A stretch of DNA of 64,000 nt from NCBI RefSeq assembly GCF_900099555.1, contig NZ_FMWM01000002.1, positions 1,299,629 to 1,363,628 of the forward strand, written 5' to 3'. Below, in pieces: positions 56,463 to 60,194 of this stretch (position 1 is the stretch's first letter; every line of letters starts with the position of its first letter). The notes under the pieces were generated by a model. The model was not told where the DNA came from. It was given only the letters and a program-made list of their open reading frames with translations, and searched no databases. Source of the DNA: Peptoniphilus raoultii (GTDB lineage: Bacteria; Bacillota; Clostridia; Tissierellales; Peptoniphilaceae). A program made the position numbers and the translations under genes.

Positions 56463-56496
56463 AAAAAAAGACCCTAACTTTAAGCTAGAGTCTTTA
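56463..56496 (-). terminator. Terminator after the flavodiiron protein gene
   Basis: On the minus strand AAAGACTCTAGCTT and AAGTTAGGGTCTTT form an imperfect stem followed by a T run. Confidence 0.75.
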
Positions 56497-56525: not shown

Positions 56526-57890
56526 TTATCTTCTTTTATTTTTATTATCATGATTATCACGTTTGTCATGATTTTCGTGATTTTCTTCTTCATGTACTTC
56601 TTCTTCAGCTTCTTCCTTTTCTTCTGCTTTTTCTTCAGAAGTAGAATCTGATTTTTGGTCTATTTTTGCATGTAATTCTCTAATATTTTTCATAGATTCA
56701 AGAATTGCATCAGCCATAGCATTAACGTCATTTAATTGAATATCATTTAAAGAAGTGTTAAGAGTAATTCTTTCGGGAAGAATGTCCATTAATTTACAAT
56801 TTTCTTCAAAGAAGTCTTCAATTTTATCTCCAACTGTACAAGCCCAAGAACCATTTTCAATAATTCCAATAGTTCTGTTTTGTAAGTTAAGAGCAGCCAT
56901 ATCCATAATGAAGTTCTTCATATTAGGATAAATTCCTAAATTGTAGGTTGGGCTAGCTAAAACTATGTGAGAATATTTAAAGGCTTCAGAAATTAAATAT
57001 GAATAGTGGGTTTTTGATACATCATAGCATCTTACATTTGTCATTCCCTTTTCGCAAAGAGCTGTTGCAAGTGTTTGAGCTGCAAATTCTGTATTACCAT
57101 ACATTGAACCGTAGCAAATTAAAACTCCTTCAACTTCTGGTGTGTAGGATGCCCATGTTGCATATTTATTTATAAACCATCCTAAATCTTTTCTCCAAAT
57201 AAGACCGTGTAGTGGACAGATAACTTTAATATCAACAGTAGCAGCTTTCTTTAAAACATTTGTAATAAATGGGCCATATTTGCCTACAATATTTGTTAAA
57301 TATCTCCTTGCATCGTCAAGCCAATCTCTTTCAAAATCTACTTCATCAGCAAAGATCTGTCCATCTAGGGCACCAAATGAACCAAAGGCATCAGCAGAGA
57401 ATAATACGCCATTTGTTGTATCCAGTGACATAATAACTTCTGGCCAGTGGACCATAGGTGCTTCTATAAAGAAAAGATTATGTTTACCAAAGGAAATTTG
57501 ATCTCCTTCTTCAACAATAATTGTTTGTTCGTCTTTTACATGGTATCCAATTTGTCTCATTATTTGGAAACCTTGCTCTGATGAAATAATTTTTAAGTTA
57601 GGGTATCTTAAAATCATTTCATCAATGGTACCGCAGTGGTCAGGTTCCATGTGGTGGATTATTAAATAATCTAGTGGACGACCATCCAATACTTGTTCAA
57701 CATTATTTATATAGTTACGTGCAATAGACCAGTCAACGGCATCTACTAGCACAGTTTTTTCATCCATTAATAGATATGAATTGTAGGCAACTCCTCTAGG
57801 TATTGGGAATAGATTCTCAAATAGTTCAAGTCTTCTATCGCTTCCACCTACATAATATAGATCATCTACAACTTTTCTTACTGTATACAT
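56526..57890 (-). CDS. Flavodiiron protein (FprA-type O2/NO reductase) with charged tail
   Basis: The 454-residue A-type flavoprotein has an N-terminal metallo-beta-lactamase diiron domain with HHMEPDH (H80, E82, D84, H85), EAPMVHWPEV, SADAFGSFGALDG and CPLHGLIWRKD, then a flavodoxin domain (VLICYGSMYGNTEFAAQ). It reduces O2 to water, or NO, with electrons from rubredoxin. The last 45 residues are an unusual Glu-rich then His/Asp/Asn-rich tail. The gene starts ten bases after the rubredoxin-bearing ACD gene, which suggests that protein is its electron donor. Confidence 0.95.
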   Translation of the reverse strand: MYTVRKVVDDLYYVGGSDRRLELFENLFPIPRGVAYNSYLLMDEKTVLVDAVDWSIARNYINNVEQVLDGRPLDYLIIHHMEPDHCGTIDEMILRYPNLKIISSEQGFQIMRQIGYHVKDEQTIIVEEGDQISFGKHNLFFIEAPMVHWPEVIMSLDTTNGVLFSADAFGSFGALDGQIFADEVDFERDWLDDARRYLTNIVGKYGPFITNVLKKAATVDIKVICPLHGLIWRKDLGWFINKYATWASYTPEVEGVLICYGSMYGNTEFAAQTLATALCEKGMTNVRCYDVSKTHYSYLISEAFKYSHIVLASPTYNLGIYPNMKNFIMDMAALNLQNRTIGIIENGSWACTVGDKIEDFFEENCKLMDILPERITLNTSLNDIQLNDVNAMADAILESMKNIRELHAKIDQKSDSTSEEKAEEKEEAEEEVHEEENHENHDKRDNHDNKNKRR

Positions 57891-57899
57891 GGTTCCTCC

Positions 57900-59828
57900 T
57901 TATTTTCTATCATCAGTAAATTCCACTTTAATGAAATTAGCTTTCGGTTCCTGACAATCAGGACAGCTCCAATCATCTGGAAGTCTTTCAAATTCTGTAC
58001 CTGGGTCGATTTCTCCTTCTGGATCTCCAAGATCAGGATCATATTCATATCCACATCCTGGGCATACCTTTACTGAATAGTTAGGAGCAAGTTTTCTTGG
58101 TTTAGATCTTCTAACTTTTTTCATTGGAGGAGCTGGTTTCTTTTCTTCTGTTCCTAGAGCTTTAGTTAAAAGTGGTATTATTTCAAACATATCTCCAACA
58201 ATACCGTAATCACAGTTCTTGAAAATTGCAGAACCAGGATTTGTATTAATTGCAACAATTGTTGAAGCATTTTTAATACCCTTTAAGTGTTGAACAGCTC
58301 CTGAAATACCACATGCTATATAAAGATTGCCATTAAATTTTTGTCCAGACATACCAACGTATCTTTCAAGTGGAAGTACTTTTAAGGTTTCAGCTGTTGG
58401 CCTTGAACATCCAATAGCAGCACCTGCAGCTTTTGCTAGAGCTTCAGCCATTGGAAGATTTTCTTTAGATCCAATTCCCTTACCAATTGAAACAACTCTT
58501 TCAGCTTCATAAATTGGTGTGTCTATTGAAATACCAACTGAAAAATCATATCCATCTTTCTTTAAGTTTTTAACTAAAATGTCAACTTGTTCTTGTGGGG
58601 TGTCAGCTTGAATCATTTCTCTTTTTCTTTGACCTGTAATAGGTTCTTGGGCTTTTTGAACTACTGCTGCTTTTCTCTTTTTCTTAGGTGCCTTACCAAT
58701 TAAATTATTTGCAACTACAACTCTTTGAATTTCACTTGTACCTTCATAAATAGTTGTTATCTTAGCATCTCTGAAAAATCTTTCAACTTCCATACCTTTC
58801 ATAAATCCATTACCACCATGGATTTGAAGAGCTTCATTTACACAAAACATAGCTGTTTCAGAGGCAAAAGTTTTAGCCATAGCAGCTTCCATTGAATACT
58901 TTTCGTGATTAGTCTTCATTTCTGCCGCAGAATAAATCATAAATCTTGCAGCACGAATTTGTGTTGCCATGTCTGCTATTTTAAAAGCTACTGCTTGTTG
59001 TTGTGCTATCGGTCTTCCAAATTGTACTCTTTCTTTTGCATATTTAAGTGCTACTTCATAAGCTCCTTGAGCAATACCAAGTGCTTGAGAAGCAATACCA
59101 ATTCTTCCTCCGTCAAGTGTTTGCATTGCAATTCTAAATCCTTGACCTTCTTGTCCAAGTAAGTTTTCCTTGGGTACCTTAACTTTGTTGAAAGTTAATT
59201 CAGCAGTTGAAGAGGATCTAATGCCCATTTTGTCATAGTGGTCACCAAAAGTAAAGCCTTCCCAGCCTTTTTCAACAATGAAAGCTGAAATACCACGTGT
59301 TCCAATTCCTGGAGTTGTAACAGCAAAAACTACATAAGTATCAGCCTTTGGTGCATTAGTAATAAATACTTTGCCACCATTTAAAATATAATAGTCTCCA
59401 TCAAGTTCAGCTGTTGTTTCAGTTCCACCAGCGTCACTACCGGCATTAGGTTCTGTTAAACCAAATGCTCCAAGTTTTTCTCCCTTAGCAAGAGGAACAA
59501 GATATTTTCTCTTTTGTTCTTCAGTACCAAAAGCTTCAATAGGATAAGAACCTAAAGAAGTGTGAGCAGATAAAATAACACCACATCCAGCATCTACTCT
59601 TGAAAGTTCTTCAACAGCAATTGCATATGAAAGTGCGTCAAGTCCGGCTCCACCATATTCTTTGCTATAGGGAATACCCATCCAACCATTTTCGCCCATC
59701 TTCTTTACAATTTCATCAGGAAATTCATTTGCCTGATCAAGTGCAAAGGCTATAGGCTTAATTTCCGCTTCAGCAAATTCTCTAATAGATTTACGAAGGG
59801 CTTCATGTTCATCAGTCGTCTTATACAT
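57900..59828 (-). CDS. Acyl-CoA dehydrogenase fused to ETF-alpha FAD domain and rubredoxin
   Basis: This 642-residue protein has three parts. Residues 1-380 are a short-chain (butyryl-CoA-like) acyl-CoA dehydrogenase with the catalytic Glu362 in [13 protein letters not shown] Lys-rich linker leads to residues about 405-560, the FAD-binding domain II of ETF-alpha ([38 protein letters not shown]). A second basic linker leads to rubredoxin at 586-634 with [11 protein letters not shown] and CPDC (C589, C592, C622, C625). ETF-alpha domain I and ETF-beta are absent. The flavodiiron gene follows at once. A path from acyl-CoA through FAD, FAD and Fe to O2 is inferred. Confidence 0.93.
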
Positions 59829-60194
59829 TATTTGCCTCCTTAAATATAATCTGTACCGATTTGGTGTATTATGTTTTTAGCTTACCACACTTTGCCAAGT
59901 TAGTAAAGATGTTTTTGCAAATTATTATAAATTCTTAGTGTGATTTCTTAAAAATATATACACATAGGTATATACCCAATAAAGACAAATAAAACATACA
60001 ATATTAATTATTTAAAAACATTATTTAAATTTTTTAAAATATTTTAACTTTATACTTTTTCCACTCTTTAATTTAAATAAATATTTATCTCAATGCATAT
60101 AATTTGTAAAATTATATTTTCTGCTATTAAATATTACAATTATTAGTAATTAAGTGTTATAATTATTAGGATTACATTTGAAGGAGGATTGAGA
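59829..60194. other. Divergent intergenic region between the ACD operon and the PfoR-like gene
   Basis: There is no gene here. It must hold two divergent promoters. For the plus-strand gene I see TTACAA (60134-60139) and TATAAT (60158-60163), 18 bases apart. For the ACD operon no promoter stands out. A short inverted repeat TATATAC/GTATATA (59955-59961 and 59968-59974) lies in the middle and could bind a regulator. The rest is very AT-rich. Confidence 0.55.
60134..60163 (+). promoter_or_regulatory. Candidate promoter of the PfoR-like gene
   Basis: TTACAA and TATAAT are separated by 18 bases and lie about 30 bases upstream of the start. AATTATTAG occurs twice around the -10 element (60138-60146 and 60161-60169). 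Confidence 0.45.

Follow-up and report, generated by a model that had tools for sequence, protein, structure and literature searches.

Butyryl-CoA oxygen oxidoreductase (BOOR), the pair of a fusion protein (BCR) and a flavodiiron protein (FDP), was shown in Fusobacterium nucleatum by Bystrom & Wolthers 2024, as described in PMC12288474, PMC12630350 and PMC13404960. According to the available text of PMC12288474, the F. nucleatum bicistron (FN1424, BCR; FN1423, FDP) encodes a fusion of acyl-CoA dehydrogenase, ETF and rubredoxin parts followed by an FDP, the two proteins work as one complex, and the enzyme reduces O2 and not NO. BOOR of F. nucleatum is reported, in the excerpts available, to be an alpha4-beta4 complex with butyryl-CoA-dependent O2 reduction. 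The accessible part of PMC13404960 also places BOOR in gut Clostridia, with the same gene pair adjoining an Rrf2 regulator. Most studied FDPs are said in the available text of PMC12288474 to draw their electrons from pyridine nucleotides. In the FDP-rubredoxin-rubredoxin reductase fusions of C. difficile and Trichomonas, gene fusion likewise puts rubredoxin before a flavodiiron O2 reductase, but these fusions, in the parts of their descriptions available (PMC6033852, PMC9364112), take electrons from NADH, whereas BOOR takes them from acyl-CoA.

Here we analyse a two-gene operon in a 64,000-nucleotide stretch of the Peptoniphilus raoultii genome (the window), and compare it with these systems and with its relatives in other genomes.

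An operon with the architecture of BOOR

The operon lies on the reverse strand (Table 1). All domains of the 642-aa chain (Acyl-CoA_dh_N, Acyl-CoA_dh_M, Acyl-CoA_dh_1, ETF_alpha and Rubredoxin) and of the 454-aa chain (ODP beta-lactamase and Flavodoxin_1) match Pfam above the curated cut-offs, confirming the original prediction that acyl-CoA dehydrogenase, ETF-alpha domain II and rubredoxin are joined in one chain and followed by a flavodiiron gene. Neither protein has a Pfam match to ETF domain I (PF01012), and the pair contains no ETF-beta. The window BCR has all four rubredoxin cysteines, which we take to be the iron ligands of that domain, and Glu362, the presumed catalytic base, is present in all 106 Cys-bearing BCRs of the alignment. 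Metallo-beta-lactamase and flavodoxin domains occur in the window FDP together with the seven diiron ligands whose motif we regard as the mark of a class-A flavodiiron protein, and we assign it to that class; the seven positions are conserved in 105 of 105 FDPs of Cys-bearing operons, except for one gap at H228.

Table 1. Features of the operon, in positions of the window
Feature	Position	Strand	Evidence
BCR fusion gene, 642 aa	57900..59828	-	ORF + Pfam
Class-A FDP gene, 454 aa, acidic/His-rich C-terminal tail	56526..57890	-	ORF + Pfam
Acyl-CoA dehydrogenase part of BCR, residues 5-376, Glu362 in IYEGT	58701..59816	-	Pfam + alignment
ETF-alpha FAD domain of BCR, residues 439-519	58272..58514	-	Pfam
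Rubredoxin domain of BCR, residues 588-632, Cys589, 592, 622, 625	57933..58067	-	Pfam + alignment
AAGGAGG ribosome-binding site of FDP gene; overlaps BCR stop codon	57895..57901	-	sequence reading
AAGGAGG ribosome-binding site of BCR gene	59835..59841	-	sequence reading
Terminator-like hairpin 3' of FDP gene	56467..56495	-	RNA folding

Nine bases separate the BCR stop from the FDP start on the same strand, so that the short spacing first proposed holds while its size, ten bases, does not. Downstream, folding of the RNA at 56510-56455 (-) gives a hairpin of 13 pairs in which the 3' arm continues into a U7 tract (-14.8 kcal/mol; z = -3.27, with 0 of 200 shuffles as stable), but a consensus terminator scan found none after the FDP gene; folding thus bears out the predicted terminator and the consensus scan does not. 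A consensus promoter scan of the window returned 21 sites against 17.8 expected, which is no evidence for a promoter. The end of the FDP (56529-56660) is rich in acidic and His/Asn/Asp residues, whereas in L038, the nearest relative, the FDP lacks this tail and has 417 aa against 454 in the window. The operon's immediate neighbours match methyltransferase and PTS_EIIC_2 models, and differ from the Rrf2 neighbour given for gut Clostridia in the accessible part of PMC13404960.

Upstream of BCR, the window (59829-60189) was aligned with L105-L110, L113, L116, L201, L202 and L038. In ten of these 12 regions TTGACAC is followed by TGTATACT and, ten bases further, by a second GTATAC; the window and L038 depart from this pattern. 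Where present, TGTATACT with the second GTATAC is a possible operator over the -10.

Among the solved structures listed (60 of 110 matched) there is no BOOR or BCR chain, and the closest to BCR is 5ol2_C, an acyl-CoA dehydrogenase chain (E 4.5e-141) from what we take to be Bcd-EtfAB of C. difficile. Bcd-EtfAB, of which the genome also has its own copy (Bcd-EtfBA, at L185), shares acyl-CoA dehydrogenase and the ETF-alpha FAD domain II with BCR; unlike it, BCR lacks ETF-alpha domain I and its operon lacks ETF-beta.

Distribution and gene order

In a draw of genomes from the family, 80 of 120 match the C-terminal half of BCR at E <= 1e-30; in 77 the match spans the ETF domain and rubredoxin, and three have shorter matches only. 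An even draw over the phylum gave a full match in 5 of 398 genomes, the window's own included, and within one other order 9 of 61 genomes have a full match, all nine keeping the four rubredoxin cysteines. Named carriers among the best 80 of at least 584 confirmed stretches include Peptoniphilus, Anaerosphaera, Urinicoccus, Lachnoanaerobaculum, Oscillibacter, Acidaminococcus and Clostridium, with no record titled Fusobacterium among these 80. The phylum draw is a sample, and neither it nor these 80 loci amount to a census of BOOR.

We collected 139 BCR ORFs (124 distinct proteins), 60 from one genome set and 79 from named records, where L175 alone of the 80 loci gave no countable BCR ORF; one genome may occur in both sets. 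An FDP ORF lies directly downstream on the same strand in all 139, at a gap of -8 to 260 bases (median 17). Every ORF examined shares this arrangement, which is more than chance. By eye, some BCRs carry N-terminal extensions of up to about 110 aa. The 772-aa FDP of L067 was considered as a fusion and rejected, as the assembly has a run of N there.

A probable butyryl-CoA:O2 oxidoreductase and its alternatives

Every BOOR sequence feature tested is present in the window operon: the fusion, the bicistron, the absence of ETF domain I and ETF-beta, and the four cysteines. As judged from the published description, of which a part was available, the F. nucleatum system shares with it the three-part fusion, the bicistron with a class-A FDP and a host with Bcd-Etf and Rnf, but comes from a different phylum. 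We therefore consider it very probable that the window operon encodes BOOR, a soluble butyryl-CoA:O2 oxidoreductase, with the full proposed electron path. As the enzyme pair itself is already published, the window copy adds one more ordinary member.

By analogy with F. nucleatum, the window organism would show this activity, with the same substrate and route of electrons. The dehydrogenase domain of BCR would oxidize butyryl-CoA, or another short-chain acyl-CoA like it, to enoyl-CoA. Electrons would pass from the FAD of this domain to that of the fused ETF-alpha domain II, then in the window copy to the rubredoxin iron, and on to the FDP with its FMN and diiron centre, where O2 would be reduced to water. 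The idea that acyl-CoA electrons could reach the flavodiiron protein through the fused ETF and rubredoxin domains, without ETF-beta and in oxygen defence, agrees with what the available text of PMC12288474 reports for F. nucleatum BOOR.

The 1.62 Mb host genome contains a thiolase-crotonase-3-hydroxyacyl-CoA dehydrogenase cluster, Bcd-EtfBA and RnfC; because of these genes, butyryl-CoA is probably made in this organism, and crotonyl-CoA could be recycled as proposed in the accessible part of PMC12288474. Crotonyl-CoA may go back to Bcd-EtfBA, in which case O2 would be removed with a weak reductant. The genome also has a second EtfA gene with a 265-aa ORF next to it, one free rubredoxin (about 62 aa) and, elsewhere, a second FDP (35% identity). 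An ORF at L186:10967-11332, taken by eye for an iron protein, was discarded as it has no Pfam match.

It is unlikely that the same machine uses another acyl-CoA (e.g. of propionyl or glutaryl type) or NO as acceptor. The top NCBIfam model for BCR is acryloyl-CoA reductase AcrC (NF042972), and those for the FDP are FlRd-type NO reductases, which would suit such a role; but AcrC scores 486.1 bits against a cut-off of 640, and was rejected as an identification for that reason, and the FlRd-type models lie far under theirs (220.7 against 635 bits). Because the best model falls under its cut-off, the acyl chain is not set by sequence; the best solved match listed is an acyl-CoA dehydrogenase and the genome holds a butyryl-CoA pathway. 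NO had been predicted as an alternative acceptor, a branch left without support because the F. nucleatum enzyme, in the available text, reduces O2 and not NO; NO reduction as the main function was set aside on that result and not on sequence.

The rival donor raised in the original prediction, free rubredoxin with a reductase that uses NAD(P)H, would be the main source of electrons for the FDP, leaving the fusion as a side branch. We regard this as very improbable: the free rubredoxin, the second FDP and the pyridine-nucleotide use of most studied FDPs would favour it, but all 139 BCRs stand directly upstream of their own FDP, and the F. nucleatum pair is described in the accessible text as acting as one complex.

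A rubredoxin domain without cysteines in Anaerococcus

The four rubredoxin cysteines are present in 120 of the 139 BCR ORFs and all missing from the other 19, which come from the 19 genomes that one genus has in the set; we infer that this genus is Anaerococcus. This Cys-less BCR is the new part of our findings. In a genus-wide search BCR was found in 29 of 31 Anaerococcus genomes (Cys-less loci: L064-L067, L076, L102-L104, L189-L199, L208-L236), and in all 29 the cysteines are replaced by D, S, S and S, always as D-x2-S and S-P-V-S. Hence the rubredoxin wire of the original prediction, for which the cysteines are intact in the window, need not be obligatory in all members. We found no paper on Anaerococcus and flavodiiron proteins, or on Anaerococcus with rubredoxin and acyl-CoA dehydrogenase together, in a search that left most subscription papers outside its reach.

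Five of the 72 positions that never vary among the 106 Cys-bearing BCRs differ in Anaerococcus, namely the four cysteines and Ala505; at a threshold of 95% conservation ten positions differ, four of them the cysteines. Gly591, Gly593, Tyr596, Gly601, Asp602, Pro617 and Pro623 are identical in the 19 aligned Anaerococcus BCRs, the catalytic Glu is kept in all 19 aligned in full, and the seven diiron ligands are intact in the 18 FDPs tested, the nineteenth having been left out for a run of N. Because the four cysteines are lost while the catalytic Glu, most invariant positions and the FDP ligands are kept, it seems that either the rubredoxin iron is dispensable across the whole genus or BOOR works differently in Anaerococcus.

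Two trees built from the other two domains unite the Cys-less BCRs in one group (SH-aLRT 99 and 97), which fits a single origin of the loss. The first, from a quick search, held the window, 34 of 105 distinct Cys-bearing, 19 of 19 Cys-less and 21 of 22 distinct rubredoxin-less BCRs; the second, also quick, omitted six rows that were long or distant as well as nine Cys-less ones, and gives weak support to the position of the group relative to its closest kin. Among FDP positions conserved in 95% of others and in under 10% of Anaerococcus, we found no change peculiar to the loss. E91L and H308N in the FDP at first looked tied to it but were rejected: both also occur in the Cys-bearing sister L056, and L91 in L135 as well, so that they follow ancestry.

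For the rubredoxin domain, pN/pS over all pairs comes to 0.161 in Anaerococcus (171 pairs), similar to the 0.173 of its ETF domain; the window's genus (66 pairs) has 0.095 and 0.085, respectively. Among close pairs, the rubredoxin value in Anaerococcus exceeds that of the ETF domain (0.126 and 0.078, 21 pairs), and the 47 close pairs of the window's genus give 0.050 for rubredoxin and 0.052 for ETF. Judged by these ratios, the Cys-less domain is under purifying selection yet more relaxed than the Cys-bearing one, which speaks against a fully unchanged role.

One reading, to which we give somewhat less than an even chance, is that BOOR of Anaerococcus works with a rubredoxin domain that holds no iron and serves as a docking piece, the ETF-domain FAD passing electrons directly to the FDP flavin, and that the iron wire would be optional elsewhere. 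A serious contender, likewise falling a little short of probable, is that Anaerococcus BOOR is decaying, or depends on free rubredoxin, with no direct FAD-to-FMN transfer. Free rubredoxin is present in all 19 Anaerococcus genomes searched, BCR is missing from the matches of two of 31 genomes, and the rubredoxin domain has the higher pN/pS, both against the window's genus and, in close pairs, against its own ETF domain. Decay or dependence on free rubredoxin is harder to reconcile with a pN/pS far below 1, with identical D, S, S, S in all 29 proteins, with serine at 592 and 622 maintained through two codon families (TCN and AGY), and with the retained catalytic Glu and diiron ligands. It is also conceivable that the Cys-less BCR binds another metal, or else that the complex has another task.

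Fusions without rubredoxin

A further 23 ORFs (22 distinct; L078-L097, L101, L058:3972-5663, L168:1881-3572) join dehydrogenase and ETF domain but match no rubredoxin model. Eleven, all from the Anaerococcus group, are divergent from a second FDP type; in three of the eleven (L087:3876-5546, L091:3846-5516 and L093:3879-5549), whose dehydrogenase domain is only 35-36% identical, IYDG stands for IYEG, with Asp for the presumed catalytic Glu. The L097 fusion diverges further and has no IYEG motif. Rubredoxin-less fusions adjoin a 3-hydroxyacyl-CoA dehydrogenase and an acetyl-CoA hydrolase/transferase gene in L094, and crotonase and thiolase in L089. The ETF-alpha FAD domain looks like a portable one-sided ETF. 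In L057, L066, L135, L195 and L199 a second FDP gene, 41-42% identical, lies divergent beside the BCR-FDP operon; this is perhaps the arrangement that gave rise to the rubredoxin-less copies.

Implications

The window copy would extend butyryl-CoA-driven oxygen removal to a Peptoniphilus-type anaerobe, in whose family the system is common. The Anaerococcus variant offers a natural experiment on whether rubredoxin iron is needed between acyl-CoA dehydrogenase and flavodiiron protein. If the docking reading is true, rubredoxin would serve there for docking where it once conducted electrons, and its part as a wire in Peptoniphilus and Fusobacterium would be optional and not necessary.
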